In this document: positions 40,980 to 46,468 of the stretch, piece by piece | Position numbering within the stretch: the stretch's first letter is position 1 | Layout: the number at the start of each line of letters is the position of its first letter | NCBI RefSeq assembly: GCF_000255295.1 | Contig: NC_017030.1 | Coordinates: 930,001 to 994,000 of the forward strand | Source: Corallococcus coralloides DSM 2259 | Lineage (GTDB): Bacteria > Myxococcota > Myxococcia > Myxococcales > Myxococcaceae | Direction of reading: 5' to 3' | Length of the DNA stretch: 64,000 nucleotides | Notes under the pieces: model-generated | Databases searched by the model: none | Told to the model about the DNA's origin: nothing | What the model saw: the letters and a program-made list of their open reading frames with translations, nothing else | Translations under genes and position numbers: made by a program

Positions 40980-40983
40980 CTCA

Positions 40984-41466
40984 ATGAACCACGCCCCTCT
41001 CTATACGGTTGAGTTCTACGAGGAGGCGAATGGCTCCTCGCCCGTCTTCAAATGGATGACCGAGGAACTCTCTCCAGCGCAGCGGCGCGTTGTGACCGCG
41101 GCCTTGGAGGAGCTTGTCGCGCCAATGGGCCCCGACATCGCGGGGACCGAGTTCGGCAAGAACCTGGGGGGCGGCGTCATTGAGCTGCGTCTGCGGCAAG
41201 ACGCGGCGCAACTCCTGAAGCGCGTTGGCAAACCCCCCAGGGAGCCTCATCCGGAGGACATGGGCGAGGAGATTCTCCTTCGCATCTTCTTCCATCCTCA
41301 TGGACGCAAACGGGCGTTGGTGCTCCACGGCTACGACAAAGGGCGCAACCCGTCCATGCGACACCAGCAGCAGCAGATTGCTATCGCGGAGGCGCGACGG
41401 GTCCGGTTCAAGCAGCGCGAGAAGCAGCGGGACAAGAGGGCAGGGAAGCCGAGGGGCGGGAAGTAG
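40984..41466 (+). CDS. HigB/RelE-type toxin (phage-derived Gp49-like)
   Basis: 160 aa from the ATG at 40984. Family pattern: YTVEFYEEANGSSPVFKWMTEELSPAQRRVVTAALEEL, then FGKNLGGGVIELRL, LLRIFFHPHGRKRALVLHGYDKGRNP and a Lys/Arg-rich helical tail (ARRVRFKQREKQRDKRAGK). HigB-type toxins are ribosome-dependent mRNA endonucleases. At 160 residues it is longer than the usual ~110. The gene comes before the antitoxin gene, the order typical for higBA. No ribosome site is visible, which fits low toxin translation. Confidence 0.86.
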   Translation: MNHAPLYTVEFYEEANGSSPVFKWMTEELSPAQRRVVTAALEELVAPMGPDIAGTEFGKNLGGGVIELRLRQDAAQLLKRVGKPPREPHPEDMGEEILLRIFFHPHGRKRALVLHGYDKGRNPSMRHQQQQIAIAEARRVRFKQREKQRDKRAGKPRGGK

Positions 41467-41514
41467 CGGTTGCTCATTATGGGTTATAGGAATATCCTTC
41501 TGATGGGAGGACTC

Positions 41515-41904
41515 GTGCGCACCCTCAAGGACCTGACTGCTTTCGTGGAGAAGGAAGCCGCGGCTGAGGGGCCTGCCGCTCAAGCGGAGCTTCAAGCCCA
41601 GCGCGACCGTTTCCGCATCGCCCGGGAATTGGCCATGCTGCGGAAGGCACAGGGCCTGACGCAGGCACAGCTCTCCGCGAGGGCGGGCGTGCCCCAGAGT
41701 GAGATCAGCAAGATTGAATCGGGAAAGGCGAACGCCACCGGCTTGACGCTCTTCCGGATGGCCCATGCGATGGGCCACGTGTTCCGGTTGGAGCCCGTGG
41801 GAAGCGCCGTGGCTCCCACCCGGCCTCGTCGCTCCGTTGCCGGGAAGAAGGGCCGCGCCGTGCGGAAGGGGGCGCCCCGGTCACGCGAGCTCGAGCCCGC
41901 GTGA
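41515..41904 (+). CDS. XRE-family antitoxin (HigA-like)
   Basis: 129 aa from the GTG at 41515, chosen for its strong GGGAGG site; ATG at 41503 and earlier starts are in frame. Helix-turn-helix: IARELAMLRKAQGLTQAQLSARAGVPQSEISKIESGKANATGLTLFRMAHAMG. A helical head (LKDLTAFVEKEAAAEG) likely binds the toxin, and the tail is basic (TRPRRSVAGKKGRAVRKG). It neutralises the upstream HigB-like toxin and should autorepress the operon. A short AT-rich patch at 41472-41500 lies between the two genes and could hold a separate antitoxin promoter. Confidence 0.88.
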   Translation: MRTLKDLTAFVEKEAAAEGPAAQAELQAQRDRFRIARELAMLRKAQGLTQAQLSARAGVPQSEISKIESGKANATGLTLFRMAHAMGHVFRLEPVGSAVAPTRPRRSVAGKKGRAVRKGAPRSRELEPA

Positions 41905-41918
41905 CGGGTGGTGCTGGC

Positions 41919-42602
41919 TCAAGGGGGCGCGCCGGGCGGGCCGCACGTCTCGTCGCCGCCTTGGAGCACGTGGCTTTCCATCTCGCGGACCTCTCCGGAC
42001 GCGGGCACGTGGAAGACGTGCTGCGTGATGGGAATGTCCCCGTCGCATTGGATGCCCCGGAAGCCGATGACGTCGAAGCTGCCGTCCACGTTCGCCTTCA
42101 CACCCCCCTGGTCCACGTCGTAGCAGAGGAAGTCGTAACCCATCGCGTAGACCATGAGGACGGCCTCCTGCTCCGTGTCGATGGTTCCCAGCACCTCCCG
42201 GACGGAGGCCGGCGTGGAATGGGTCCGCACCTGGTCTCCCTGCGTCGTGAGCAGGAAGTGGTAGGAGCAGGCGTCTGCGTAACAAGAGGAGTGGAAGCCC
42301 TCGGAAGGCCGTGCCGCCTCCACGGCCGCCTGACACGCGGGGACGTCGGTGGCTGTCGAGCAGGCCTGCCCCCAGGAGGCGATGCTGCCGGAGGCCGGGC
42401 CCTCCGAAGGAGGCTGCTCGCGCGTGCCGCGGACCTGGACCGCATCCAGCCCCGCCGCGGGACGAAGGTCCTCGAAGAGCGGCTGGCGGCTCCACCAATA
42501 CGAGCAGTCGACCTGCTTGTATCCGTCCGTGTCCGCCGAGGAATCACAGCCGGCCAGCAGTAGCGTCGTACCCACCAGGACTCGTGAGAAGAAATGGCTC
42601 AT
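41919..42602 (-). CDS. Cys-rich lipoprotein, paralogue 4
   Basis: 227 aa from the ATG at 42602. Lipobox LLLAGC. It shares the family core with the three genes upstream: a Cys-containing head, CSTATDVPAC, GFHSSC.AD.C, FLLTTQGDQVRTHST, VLGTIDTEQEAVL, VDGSFDVIG, CDGD and a terminal Cys. Its ATG overlaps the stop of the ferritin-fusion paralogue by ATGA, so it is translated from that mRNA and has no promoter of its own. Divergence is greater than among the other three. Envelope protein of unknown function; even cysteine spacing suggests disulfides. Confidence 0.8.
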   Translation of the reverse strand: MSHFFSRVLVGTTLLLAGCDSSADTDGYKQVDCSYWWSRQPLFEDLRPAAGLDAVQVRGTREQPPSEGPASGSIASWGQACSTATDVPACQAAVEAARPSEGFHSSCYADACSYHFLLTTQGDQVRTHSTPASVREVLGTIDTEQEAVLMVYAMGYDFLCYDVDQGGVKANVDGSFDVIGFRGIQCDGDIPITQHVFHVPASGEVREMESHVLQGGDETCGPPGAPP

Positions 42603-43930
42603 GCCCAGAGGTCCTGCTCCAGCGTGTCCAGCAGCGCCAGGGCCGCCTCCGGCGTGGGCATGCCCGCCATCGTGATGATGCTCGCGTCGAGCGGCACCGC
42701 GACGTCCTCGCGCAGGGCCGCCACCGCGCGCTTCTGGGCTTCGCGCAGCTTCTCGCGCTCCTCCGTGGACAGGCGCGGCCGGGCCCACTGGTCGATGTCC
42801 CATGACAACGCCGCGTGCCGCGTCTCATCCTCCGCGATGCGGACCATGGCCTCGCGCACCTCCAGGTCCCGCGCGTGCAACGCCTGATGGTGCGCGAGCA
42901 GCGCGCCGTACGTCTCTCGCACGCAGCCCTCCACCGCGTTCTCCAGCGCCACGTCCAGCAGGGAGCGCGGCGGCAGCTCCTCCACCACCGGACGCTGGGG
43001 CGTGCCTCCGAAGCGGCGCGCGAGCCGGTCCGTCACCTGGGCGTGCTGGACCTCCTCCATGGCGCTCCTGCGCGCCGCGTCCTGGAGCCCCACGTCCGCG
43101 CCGTGCAACGCCAGCTCATCGCGCAGTCTCAGGAACGCATGCACCGACGCCGCCTCCAGGTGCGCCGCGTCCGCGAAGTAGCGTCCCAGCGCCTCCGGGC
43201 TCTCGCAGGCTTCCGCGACCTGGAGCCCCACCGGCCGCCGGCCGATGTTGCAGTTGGGGGCTCCCTTCTCCAGGACGCGCTGCTCCTGCTCCTGGACCTC
43301 ACCGGACGCGGAGACCCGCACCACGTGCTGCGTCAGCTCCGTGCCCGGCCCGCAGGCGTAGCCCTTCGTCCCGATGACATTGAAGCTGCCGTCCGCGTTC
43401 TTCTTCACCGCGCCGCCCTTCAGCTCGTAGCAGCTCACGGCGTAGCCTGCGGCGAAGGTCTTGAGCACCGCCTCCTGCTCCGTGTCGATGGTGCCCAGCA
43501 CCTGCTGGAGCTCCTCCAGCGTCGAGTGCGTCTTCACCTCGTCACCCCGGGTCGTCACCAGGAAGGACTCGCTGCAGAAGTCCACGCAGACGTGGTGGAA
43601 GCCGGACGTGACGTTCGCTTTCTCCAGCGCGGCGGTGCACGCGGGGACGTCGGTCGCCGTCGCGCAGGGCTCGCCGGAGGAACTCACGTTGACGTAGGAG
43701 ACGGGCGGCTGGCCTCCGTTGGAGTTGATGTAGCGCAGCTGCACGAAGTCCGGCTCCGGCGTCAGCGTCAGGTCACTGACGGCCAGTCCCTGAACCGAGC
43801 ACGCGACCTCCGAGTAGCCCTTCAGGTCCACACTGCCCTCCGAACCGTCACAGCCCGCCAGCACCAGGGGCGTGGCGAGCGAGGCGTGCAGGGCCCGCGA
43901 GAAGAGACGGCGCAGTCGATGGATGTTCAA
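42599..43930 (-). CDS. Cys-rich lipoprotein fused to a ferritin-like di-iron domain, paralogue 3
   Basis: 443 aa; TTG start at 43930, with CCAGGAG six bases ahead and the same NIHRLRRLF start as its paralogues. Lipobox LVLAGC. Residues ~25-245 are the shared Cys-rich unit (CATATDVPAC, LVTTRGDEVKTHST, VLGTIDTEQEAVL, NADGSFNVIGT). From ~265 a four-helix ferritin-like domain adds candidate metal ligands: HLEAASVHAFLRL, AMEEVQHAQV (ExxH), NAVEGCVRETYGALL and IAEDETRHAAL (ExxH). It could oxidise or store iron or act as an oxidase at the envelope. A sigma-54 promoter lies 38 bases upstream. The fusion occurs in only one of the four copies. Confidence 0.86.
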   Translation of the reverse strand: MNIHRLRRLFSRALHASLATPLVLAGCDGSEGSVDLKGYSEVACSVQGLAVSDLTLTPEPDFVQLRYINSNGGQPPVSYVNVSSSGEPCATATDVPACTAALEKANVTSGFHHVCVDFCSESFLVTTRGDEVKTHSTLEELQQVLGTIDTEQEAVLKTFAAGYAVSCYELKGGAVKKNADGSFNVIGTKGYACGPGTELTQHVVRVSASGEVQEQEQRVLEKGAPNCNIGRRPVGLQVAEACESPEALGRYFADAAHLEAASVHAFLRLRDELALHGADVGLQDAARRSAMEEVQHAQVTDRLARRFGGTPQRPVVEELPPRSLLDVALENAVEGCVRETYGALLAHHQALHARDLEVREAMVRIAEDETRHAALSWDIDQWARPRLSTEEREKLREAQKRAVAALREDVAVPLDASIITMAGMPTPEAALALLDTLEQDLWA

Positions 43931-43967
43931 GGGAGGCTCCTGGGAAGGACGTGTGTCCGGGGCACTG

Positions 43968-43983
43968 AGCAATGCGGATGCCA
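43968..43983 (-). promoter_or_regulatory. Sigma-54 (-24/-12) promoter of paralogue 3
   Basis: On the minus strand the sequence reads TGGCATCCGCATTGCT, matching the consensus TGGCAC-N5-TTGCW with the exact spacing. The predicted start of transcription is near 43957, leaving a ~27-base leader with the AGGAG site before the TTG. The same 16 bases precede two other paralogues. Confidence 0.85.
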
Positions 43984-44095
43984 GGGCGTCTTCTCTGCGA
44001 AGTCCCCCTGCCGCATGGCGCGGAAGGCCGGGAGGGACTCGGAAAGTTGAGGGGGACAGGACCTGGACGCCGCGCTCGTGGGGCGACCTGGAGCC

Positions 44096-44764
44096 CTACT
44101 GGCCGGCAGGGCAGACCGGGTCGCCCTCCTCCAGGATGCGCGTCTCCAGCTTCTGGACCGTCCCGGCCGCGGTCACCTTCAGCACGTACTGCGTCAGCTT
44201 CGTGCCCGGTCCGCAAGCGTAGCCATTCGTCCCGATGACATTGAAGCTCCCATCCGCGTTCCTCTTCACCGCGCCTTGCTCCTGGGTCCCGCAGACGAAG
44301 GAGTAGTTGGACGCGAAGGCCTGGAGCACCGCCTCCTGTTCCGTGTCGATGGTGCCCAGCAGCTGCTGGAGCTCTGCCTGCGACGAATACGTCTTCACCT
44401 CGTCACCCCGGGTCGTCACCAGGAAGTGCTGGCGGCATTCGCGCGTGCAGTTGTAGTGGAAGCCGGAGGTGACGGTCGCATCCTCCAGTGCGGTCTCACA
44501 CGCGGTGACGTCGGTGGCCGTCGCGCAGGACTGGCCAGAGGAACTCACGCTGACAGAGAGGGCGCGCGTGTCGGGGTCGAAGGAGCGCAGTTGCACGAAG
44601 TCCGGCTCTGGGGTCAGCGTCAGGTCGCTGACGGAGATGCCCTGGTTCGTGCAAGCGATCTCCGAGTAGCCCGTCAGGTCCACGCTGCCTTCCGGTCCGC
44701 CACAGCCCGCCAGCATCAGAGGCAGGGCGAGCGAGAAAAGACGACGCAGTCGATGGATGTTCAA
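44096..44764 (-). CDS. Cys-rich lipoprotein, paralogue 2
   Basis: 222 aa, TTG start at 44764 with CCAGGAG upstream. Lipobox LMLAGC. It shows the family core: YSEIACTNQGISVSDLTLTPEPDFVQLR, CATATDVTAC, FHYNCTRECRQHFLVTTRGDEVKTYSS, LLGTIDTEQEAVL, NADGSFNVIGTNGYACGPG, and a terminal GDPVCPAGQ. It has the lipoprotein unit only, without the ferritin-like part of its neighbour. Its leader and promoter are nearly the same as those of paralogues 1 and 3, so promoter and gene were duplicated together. Function unknown. Confidence 0.8.
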   Translation of the reverse strand: MNIHRLRRLFSLALPLMLAGCGGPEGSVDLTGYSEIACTNQGISVSDLTLTPEPDFVQLRSFDPDTRALSVSVSSSGQSCATATDVTACETALEDATVTSGFHYNCTRECRQHFLVTTRGDEVKTYSSQAELQQLLGTIDTEQEAVLQAFASNYSFVCGTQEQGAVKRNADGSFNVIGTNGYACGPGTKLTQYVLKVTAAGTVQKLETRILEEGDPVCPAGQ

Positions 44765-44800
44765 GGGCGGCTCCTGGGAAGGAAGTGTGCCCGGGCCCTG

Positions 44801-44816
44801 AGCAATGCGGATGCCA
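44801..44816 (-). promoter_or_regulatory. Sigma-54 (-24/-12) promoter of paralogue 2
   Basis: Identical 16-base TGGCATCCGCATTGCT on the minus strand, 37 bases before the TTG start. Only 15 bases separate it from the stop of paralogue 1, so any activator site must lie inside that gene's coding region. Confidence 0.85.
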
Positions 44817-44831
44817 GGGCGACTTGGAGCC

Positions 44832-45536
44832 CTACCGCCCGGTGGGGCAGACCGTGTCTCCCTCTTCCAGGATGCGCGTCTCCAGTTCCTCGATCTCACC
44901 GGAGACCGTCACCTTCAGCACGTGCTGCCTCAGCTCGCCGCCCGGCCACCCGCAGGCATACCCATCGGTCCCGATGACATTGAAGCTGCCATCCGCGTTC
45001 TTCTTCACCGCCCCCCGCTCCTTGTTCCCGCAGAAGAAGGTGTAGCGGGTCGAGAAGGCCTTGAGCACTGCCTCCTGCTCCGTGTCGATGGTGCCCAGCA
45101 ACTGCTGGAGCTCTGCCTGCGACGCGTGCGTCTTCACCTCGTCGCCCCGGGTCGTCACCAGGAAGTGGAAATCGTTGCAGCCGCCCCTGCCCCTGCACTT
45201 CCAGTGGAAGCCGTCGGTGGGGATCGCGTTCTCCAACGCGGTCTCACACGCGGGGACGTCCGTGGCCGTCGCGCAGGGCTGGCCGGAGGAGCTCAGGCTG
45301 ATGGGGGTGGGGGGCGCAGCGCCGTCCTCGGCGTAGTCATCGAAGTAGCGCAGTTGCACGAAGTCCGGTGCCTGCGTCAGCTTCAGGTCGCTGACGGAGA
45401 TGTTCTGGTCCGTGCACGCGATCTCCGAGTAGCCCTTCAGGTCCACGCTGCCCTCCGGTCCGCCACAGCCCGCCAGCACCAGGGGCAGGGCGAGCGAGGC
45501 CCGCACGAAGAGACGGCGCAGTTGATGGATGTTCAC
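44832..45536 (-). CDS. Cys-rich lipoprotein, paralogue 1
   Basis: 234 aa, GTG start at 45536 aligned with the TTG starts of the paralogues; its ribosome site (CTGGGAG) is weaker. Lipobox LVLAGC. Family core: YSEIACTDQNISVSDLKLTQAPDFVQLRYFDDY, CATATDVPACETAL, FHWKCRGRGGCNDFHFLVTTRGDEVKTHAS, LLGTIDTEQEAVL, FFCGNKERGAVKKNADGSFNVIGTDGYAC and GDTVCPTGR. The family is probably exported to a membrane. First of the tandem set, preceded by the same sigma-54 element. Confidence 0.8.
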   Translation of the reverse strand: MNIHQLRRLFVRASLALPLVLAGCGGPEGSVDLKGYSEIACTDQNISVSDLKLTQAPDFVQLRYFDDYAEDGAAPPTPISLSSSGQPCATATDVPACETALENAIPTDGFHWKCRGRGGCNDFHFLVTTRGDEVKTHASQAELQQLLGTIDTEQEAVLKAFSTRYTFFCGNKERGAVKKNADGSFNVIGTDGYACGWPGGELRQHVLKVTVSGEIEELETRILEEGDTVCPTGR

Positions 45537-45573
45537 GGACAACTCCCAGGCAAGGTGTGTGTCCGGGCGGCAA

Positions 45574-45589
45574 AGCAATGCGGATGCCA
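45574..45589 (-). promoter_or_regulatory. Sigma-54 (-24/-12) promoter of paralogue 1
   Basis: The same 16-base TGGCATCCGCATTGCT on the minus strand, 38 bases before the GTG start. Upstream sequence (around 45592-45610, CTGCGAAG block) is also conserved ahead of paralogue 3, a candidate activator-binding region. Confidence 0.85.
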
Positions 45590-45667
45590 GGGCCGCTTCC
45601 CTGCGAAGCCCCCTCCCACGCTGCTCGGAAAGCTGAGAACGACTTGGAAAGTTGAGGGGGGCGGGGC

Positions 45668-46468
45668 CTAGATGCCGCGCTTCCGGGCCGGGCCGCGAGG
45701 CGCGCGCGGCCGTTCAATGAGCATGGCCAGCCCGTCCAGGATGCGCTCCAGGCCAAAGGCATACGCATGGTCCGGGTCGTACGCGGCGCCATGGGCCTTG
45801 CCCGCGGCGGAGCCCACCCGGGACGCGATGGGGTAGCGCTCCGGGTCGGACATGCGCGCGAGCAGGGACGCGTTCGCCTCCCACCAGGCCCCATCGCTCA
45901 TCTGGGACTCGAGCCGCGCGGCGCGCTGGTCCAGGGCCGCCCGGGCGGAGGACTCCACGAAGCCCAGCACGAACGTCAACGCCGCGTCCTGCGCCACGTC
46001 GTCCAGGCCCACGCCTTCGAGCGCCTGGAGCTCGTACTCGTATTTGGCCATCTGGCCCGGACCCAGCGGTGGGCGCGTGGTGGACACGTCCGCGAGCCAG
46101 GGATGCCGTGAGAACAGGGCCCGGTTGTCGTGGGCCACGGCCTCCAGCCGCGAGCGCCAGTCCCGGGCCTTCGGCTTGCGCCGGGCCATGCCCGCATAGA
46201 GGGTGTCGAGCATCACGTCGATGAGCTCCGCCCGCCCGGGCACATAGGTGTAGAGCGCCATGGGCGCGATGCCGAGCTTCCCCGCGAGCGCCCGCATCGT
46301 CACCGCGTCCAGCCCCTCCGCGTCCGCCAGCGCCACCGCCGCTTCGACGACGGCGGTGACGGTGAGCGCCTGCTTCGGACCCCGCTTGCCCTGGGCGGGG
46401 AGGGAGTCCCGCCACAGCAGCTCCAGCGTCCGGGTGGGGTCTCCCATGCTGCTGCGATGCGATGCCAT
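45668..46468 (-). CDS. TetR/AcrR family regulator with TetR_C-type domain
   Basis: 266 aa, ATG at 46468 (one at 46447 also in frame). HTH: TVTAVVEAAVALADAEGLDAVTMRALAGKLGIAPMALYTYVPGRAELIDVMLD, with the MALYxYV motif of the TetR_C_1 group. The long C-terminal ligand domain contains AHDNRALFSRHPWLADVSTTRPPLGPGQMAKYEYELQAL. A CGTACG palindrome in the divergent promoter region toward the VOC gene is the probable operator. It likely responds to a small lipophilic ligand. Confidence 0.9.
   Translation of the reverse strand: MASHRSSMGDPTRTLELLWRDSLPAQGKRGPKQALTVTAVVEAAVALADAEGLDAVTMRALAGKLGIAPMALYTYVPGRAELIDVMLDTLYAGMARRKPKARDWRSRLEAVAHDNRALFSRHPWLADVSTTRPPLGPGQMAKYEYELQALEGVGLDDVAQDAALTFVLGFVESSARAALDQRAARLESQMSDGAWWEANASLLARMSDPERYPIASRVGSAAGKAHGAAYDPDHAYAFGLERILDGLAMLIERPRAPRGPARKRGI

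Follow-up and report, generated by a model that had tools for sequence, protein, structure and literature searches.

Myxobacteria encode many enhancer-binding proteins (EBPs), but both the DNA site and the regulon have been defined for few of them. The closest described systems are two sigma-54 regulons of M. xanthus, namely that of Nla28, which is connected with starvation and uses the site CT(C/G)CG(C/G)AG (PMC9765219), and that of NmpR, which is connected with oxygen and uses the site GCGCA-N5-TGCGC (PMC11841059). The genes described here resemble both regulons in the -24/-12 core, the tandem upstream sites for a dimeric activator and the presence of several unlinked targets, but differ from them in the sequence of the palindrome (CTCAG-N4-CTGAG) and in the smaller set of targets found, which comprises two lipoprotein families.

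On the protein level, the relevant comparison is with the branch of R2, aldehyde-deformylating oxygenase and PaaC (also AurF and rubrerythrin), whose members are cytoplasmic enzymes. The family analyzed here exhibits the same four-helix core with the pattern E, ExxH, E, ExxH; however, this core is predicted to be exported, forming the C-terminal half of lipoproteins that begin with a Cys-rich domain, and the sequence matches of the family are weak. Ferritin-like helices are present also in EncB and EncC of M. xanthus (a weak match to the EncC profile was obtained, E 0.055), but these are short encapsulin cargo proteins, while the members of the present family are membrane lipoproteins. Neither Pfam nor NCBIfam provides a name for this widespread myxobacterial family, and no paper on it was found in the literature collection searched.

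The lipoprotein genes and their -24/-12 promoters

The window, i.e. the whole stretch of 64,000 nucleotides that was analyzed, is a part of the 10.08 Mb genome of a myxobacterium, a predatory soil bacterium; among the named relatives of the lipoprotein family, those closest to this genome come from Corallococcus species. Four adjoining lipoprotein genes occupy positions 41919-45589, all on the minus strand (Table 1), and a TetR-family gene lies directly upstream of them on the same strand. Neither a sigma-70-type promoter nor an intrinsic terminator was found anywhere in the four-gene region.

Table 1. Positions of the genes, promoter elements, leaders, palindromes and the ferritin-like domain in the window
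Feature	Position	Strand	Description
Gene 1	44832..45536	-	Short-form Cys-rich lipoprotein (234 aa) with LAGC lipobox; lacks the ferritin-like domain
Gene 2	44096..44764	-	Cys-rich lipoprotein, 222 aa, short form
Gene 3	42599..43930	-	Full-length lipoprotein, 443 aa, Cys-rich and ferritin-like domains
Gene 4	41919..42602	-	Short Cys-rich lipoprotein paralogue, 227 aa, without a promoter of its own
Gene 3 ferritin-like domain	42602..43198	-	Residues 245-443
Unit 1 -24/-12 element TGGCATCCGCATTGCT	45574..45589	-	
Unit 2 -24/-12 element TGGCATCCGCATTGCT	44801..44816	-	Starts 15 nt past the gene 1 stop
Unit 3 -24/-12 element TGGCATCCGCATTGCT	43968..43983	-	
Unit 1 leader	45537..45573	-	37 nt, GGGAG ribosome-binding site, then GTG
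Unit 2 leader	44765..44800	-	36 nt, AGGAG ribosome-binding site, then TTG
Unit 3 leader	43931..43967	-	37 nt, AGGAG ribosome-binding site, then TTG
Unit 1 proximal palindrome CTCAGCTTTCCGAG	45624..45637	-	48 bp to the -24 element
Unit 1 distal palindrome CTCAACTTTCCAAG	45643..45656	-	67 bp to the -24 element
Unit 3 palindrome CTCAACTTTCCGAG	44038..44051	-	68 bp to the -24 element

The original prediction assigned to three of these genes the exact-spacing element TGGCAT-N5-TTGCT, which is indeed exact in units 1, 2 and 3; all three exhibit the GG at -24, the GC at -12 and the fixed spacing of a sigma-54 promoter, a type that works only with a dedicated activator. At up to one mismatch, TGGCATCCGCATTGCT has 3 matches in the window, those of units 1-3 only, vs 0.54 expected by chance, while TGGCATNNNNNTTGCT occurs in 13 copies in the 10.08 Mb genome and the reversed control in none. 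The leaders had been described as 37-38 bases long with TTG or GTG starts: the starts are as stated and the length is not, since the distance between -12 element and start codon is 37 nt in two leaders and 36 nt in one. The TTG starts proposed at 45578 and 43972 by a mechanical ORF caller fall in or just past the -12 element and are not likely to be real. The coupling of gene 4 to gene 3 was borne out by an ATGA overlap (GGCATGAGC), in which the start of gene 4 at 42602 sits in the stop codon of gene 3.

Relatives of gene 1 were gathered from 96 Myxococcaceae genomes, of which 61 contain at least one, and the 300 bp upstream of the 102 relatives with a usable start were scanned for TGGCAYNNNNNTTGCW. 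A perfect TGGCAY-N5-TTGCW was found upstream of 78/102 relatives (7 genera, 53 genomes), nearly always 30-43 nt ahead of the start codon, whereas the controls (reversed, complement and reverse-complement motifs, and spacers of 3, 4, 6 or 7 nt) gave 0/102 perfect matches. The promoter block, sought elsewhere as the original prediction had suggested, is thus present across seven genera, beyond what plain duplication would leave. Removal of near-identical sequences reduces the 78 promoters to 56, with at least 21 different N5 spacers, and the gaps between promoter and start codon occur in all three frames, so recent copying and coding both fail as explanations; maintenance of the promoter by an overlapping reading frame, in particular, is ruled out by these gap lengths. 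Conservation across genera is here a matter of selection on a promoter. The perfect promoter is absent in 24/102 relatives, including a full-length Corallococcus subfamily with a copy at 4.47 Mb of the window's own genome, and the link between promoter and family appears strong and not universal.

In the tree of the N-terminal domain, genes 1 and 2 cluster with the short gene found in one relative (G027), whose full-length gene is orthologous to gene 3, while gene 4 shares an old branch with two further genes from the same genus; a promoterless subfamily of full-length members, including the copy at 4.47 Mb, forms a separate clade. G027 thus has a short and a full-length unit, and the window lineage has one extra short unit. 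The description of the locus as an amplified family therefore holds for units 1-3 and fails for gene 4, which in this tree is an old separate paralogue outside the recent amplification.

The upstream palindrome and its other targets

A side-by-side display of the upstream regions revealed an inverted repeat with the consensus CTCAGgTTTCTGAG, which the first reading of the sequence had missed. Its form as the candidate activator site is CTCAG-N4-CTGAG (also written CTCAGGTTTCTGAG). At up to 2 mismatches the palindrome is present in 66/80 family promoters, vs 0.06/80 on average for shuffled motifs, and at up to 3 mismatches in 76/80, vs ~1.3/80. It is located mostly 48-82 bp 5' of the -24 element, and the distances cluster at 46-49, 57-62, 67-69, 78-83 and 102-103 bp, in steps of approximately one helical turn; the palindromes are often paired, with 19-21 bp between the sites. 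Units 1 and 3 share this dyad-symmetric site in helical phase, as would be typical of an EBP regulon; unit 2 possesses the core promoter with no palindrome upstream, the DNA there being the end of gene 1. The claim that promoter and gene were duplicated together is thus correct for the core promoter and incorrect for the activator site, and we infer that the duplication that yielded unit 2 copied the core promoter and the gene and not the activator site.

The palindrome is rare. CTCARNTTTCYGAG has four sites in the whole of the own genome, three of which are ahead of members of the lipoprotein family, namely two in the window and one at the 4.75 Mb paralogue, a full-length protein (52% identical) with its own sigma-54 element. 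The fourth site, at 451622 (~0.45 Mb), lies 82 bp 5' of a -24/-12-like element, TGGCATGGGCATGGCA, followed by a gene that encodes a lipoprotein with a beta-propeller domain (PF09826). The orthologues of this gene also carry the palindrome, and its distances from the beta-propeller promoters (56-60, 68-70 or 81-82 bp) correspond to the same phases as in the Cys-rich family. A composite of the palindrome and the -24/-12 element was found in 16/16 genomes of the window's genus, once in each, and in 53/195 Myxococcota genomes, all but one Myxococcaceae (0 for the control). With a looser definition of the composite, 51/92 family genomes had a match (no matches for the controls). Those composite matches that were classified by protein are members of either the Cys-rich or the beta-propeller family of lipoproteins; in the M. 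xanthus strain analyzed (AM003), both of the two family members have the promoter and the palindrome.

The same promoter and palindrome ahead of two lipoprotein families suggest a small sigma-54 lipoprotein regulon, which is probably run by a single activator; one EBP is the simplest reading of these patterns. The sigma-54-type promoter and the coordinate control by an EBP proposed in the original prediction are strongly supported by the sequence comparison, i.e. by the conserved promoter and the phased conserved palindrome, and the control circuit appears to be small and apparently undescribed. Analysis of 40 neighbourhoods of 13-19 kb revealed no EBP gene within ~9 kb of the promoter-bearing members. 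No visible tie connects an EBP gene at ~26 kb of the window to the lipoprotein genes, and EBP autoregulation as a role of the palindrome was rejected, since none of the classified composite matches is near an EBP gene. Further exact palindromes, with no sigma-54 element, were observed in three Archangium-group genomes ahead of a beta-barrel-like gene, and in genus g4 near a thioesterase-like gene.

The predicted ferritin-like domain

The members of the family are mostly ~440 aa long and consist of two halves. The N-terminal half comprises a lipobox together with cysteines that are invariant or almost so; the lipobox characteristic of lipoproteins has the form LAGC in genes 1-4, and its Cys is invariant in 87 full-length members. 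For the N-terminal domain of gene 1, modeled with a pLDDT of 91.8, a fold search of the PDB gave no convincing match: the top hit was YpmB (VIA Z 5.3 over 59 residues), followed by cystatin-like folds with Z ~4.

The AlphaFold model of the C-terminal domain of gene 3 (pLDDT 84.5) is a four-helix bundle. VIA-align superimposed it on PaaC, aldehyde-deformylating oxygenase and R2-like oxidases with Z ~14-15 over 174-188 residues, values that can be reached by unrelated helical bundles. Residues E259, E293xxH296, E339 and E369xxH372 of this domain are invariant in the 87 members, as is E334, in the vicinity of E339. We consider this invariant set of predicted ligands as stronger evidence for the ferritin-like identity than the Z-score; Pfam matches are weak and were obtained for some members only (AurF, Rubrerythrin, Ferritin_2). 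Given the invariant ligands and the ferritin-like model, full-length members are likely to possess an extracytoplasmic diiron or Mn/Fe centre. The original statement that the family has no clear known function thus says too little, as a ferritin-like domain with all of the diiron ligands is present in the majority of members; its place in the window is gene 3, which has the only ferritin-like segment of the family there, while genes 1, 2 and 4 end at the domain junction, with no remnant of the helical domain downstream.

Competing explanations and the proposed control circuit

The likeness of the promoters could in principle reflect only a recent duplication of the units, with the sigma-54-like motif being functionless, and the identical promoter strings of units 1-3 and the recent clade that these units form with two genes of one relative fit such a scenario. 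It is refuted, however, by the presence of the motif with varied spacers in seven genera, at the frequency given above and with none in the controls, as well as ahead of the 52%-identical paralogue at 4.75 Mb, and its probability is practically negligible. The genes could also be mostly read through from the TetR-family gene, with the promoters contributing little; this gene is just upstream on the same strand and the region exhibits no terminator-like site, but a conserved promoter and activator site would not last across genera whose upstream sequences differ, which makes predominant read-through very improbable.

The palindrome, for its part, could serve another type of regulator, a repressor or co-activator other than an EBP, with the sigma-54 core retained and the EBP acting elsewhere or unspecifically. 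Some EBPs work without a DNA-binding site, and together with the lack of a linked EBP gene in the neighbourhoods analyzed this speaks for such an arrangement, but tandem phased palindromes 50-80 bp upstream resemble an EBP site, and the second, beta-propeller promoter has palindromes at the same distances, so we regard it as unlikely. As many EBPs of M. xanthus function in development, the set might alternatively be part of a starvation or development cascade, as the original prediction implied, with Nla28 or an EBP akin to it as the developmental activator. A lipoprotein gene, MXAN881, has been reported as an Nla28 target (PMC9765219), which also counts for this possibility. Nonetheless, the Nla28 half-site is not enriched upstream of the family (28 matches at up to 1 mismatch vs 27-73 for the controls) and differs from the palindrome by 3-4 mismatches, and we find little reason to expect control of this kind. 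The NmpR site is not enriched upstream either, its distribution of mismatches being the same as for the reversed control. The view of such promoters as a hallmark of development or starvation thus finds no support in these results, and sigma-54 of myxobacteria serves many processes.

The best explanation, which we hold to be quite probable, is that units 1-3 are sigma-54 units switched on by one palindrome-binding EBP. According to this model, sigma-54 RNA polymerase would transcribe units 1-3 from the conserved -24/-12 promoters, and a single EBP would bind CTCAG-N4-CTGAG ~50-80 bp upstream and reach the polymerase via DNA looping. Unit 2, with its core promoter and no site, would rely either on transcription continuing from gene 1 or on the sites of its neighbours, ~0.8 kb off, and gene 4 would be translated through its coupling to gene 3. 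The same EBP would also govern two loci elsewhere in the genome, the beta-propeller lipoprotein (0.45 Mb) and the full-length paralogue (4.75 Mb). The encoded proteins are predicted to be exported lipoproteins with a membrane-anchored Cys-rich N-terminal domain, joined in full-length members to an extracytoplasmic ferritin-like domain, most likely diiron (or Mn/Fe). The use of sigma-54, the single EBP, the binding of metal and the role in the cell envelope are all features that we infer from sequence. More speculatively, and with considerable doubt, the EBP might sense an envelope or extracellular condition and induce a surface complex of the beta-propeller lipoprotein and a tethered diiron oxidase or oxygenase, with the short copies as non-catalytic partners. 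If true, this would extend to the outside of the cytoplasm a superfamily whose known members are mainly cytoplasmic.

Sequence alone thus yields a sharp candidate site, through which the activator may be found, and a short list of targets, kept in many species including M. xanthus, in a laboratory strain of which the regulon would be testable; unit 2, with a promoter and without a site, provides a natural control. The widespread lipoprotein family, in turn, gains a predicted structural class (ferritin-like, probably diiron) and a likely location in the cell envelope.

Genes around the lipoprotein cluster and a sigma-54 activator

The lipoprotein cluster is adjoined by a type II toxin-antitoxin pair, and a TetR-family regulator is encoded immediately 5' of unit 1 and in the same orientation. 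Elsewhere in the window, a sigma-54 activator exhibits GAYSGA in place of the GAFTGA motif and, as judged by eye, what looks like an FHA-like N-terminus; no link between this activator and the lipoprotein regulon was seen.

Coordinates of the features discussed
Feature	Location	Strand	Basis
Gp49/HigB-like toxin gene (PF05973), then XRE-type antitoxin (HTH_3)	window 40981-41904	+	Pfam domains
TetR-family regulator	window 45668-46468	-	PF00440, PF02909
Sigma-54 activator	window about 26.2-27.9 kb	+	PF00158
L022, full-length paralogue without sigma-54 element	G000:C1:4470144-4471607
Interrupted family member	G022:C1159:61557-62801		single in-frame TGA
Interrupted family member	G024:C1:858776-859564		single in-frame TGA
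Interrupted family member	G064:C3:23212-23976		single in-frame TGA

Motif matches outside the cluster

In the own genome, exact copies of TGGCAT-N5-TTGCT precede genes whose products were recognised by eye: an lpxC-like gene (locus L005, 3.00 Mb), a sigma-factor gene (L007, 3.95 Mb) and an mdoG-like gene (L008, 4.72 Mb). The palindrome CTCAGATTTCTGAG is kept in 3 genomes of genus g3 (Archangium group), 5' of an outer-membrane beta-barrel-like gene (L170, L171, L172), with no sigma-54 element visible at these sites.

Promoter-less and interrupted family members

Those genes related to L022 that likewise lack the promoter form a separate clade in the tree; an NtrC-type regulator gene is found about 8 kb from L022. 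In the three interrupted members the frame behind the TGA is still open for the ferritin-like domain or its start, and the stop codon may reflect either ongoing decay or read-through.
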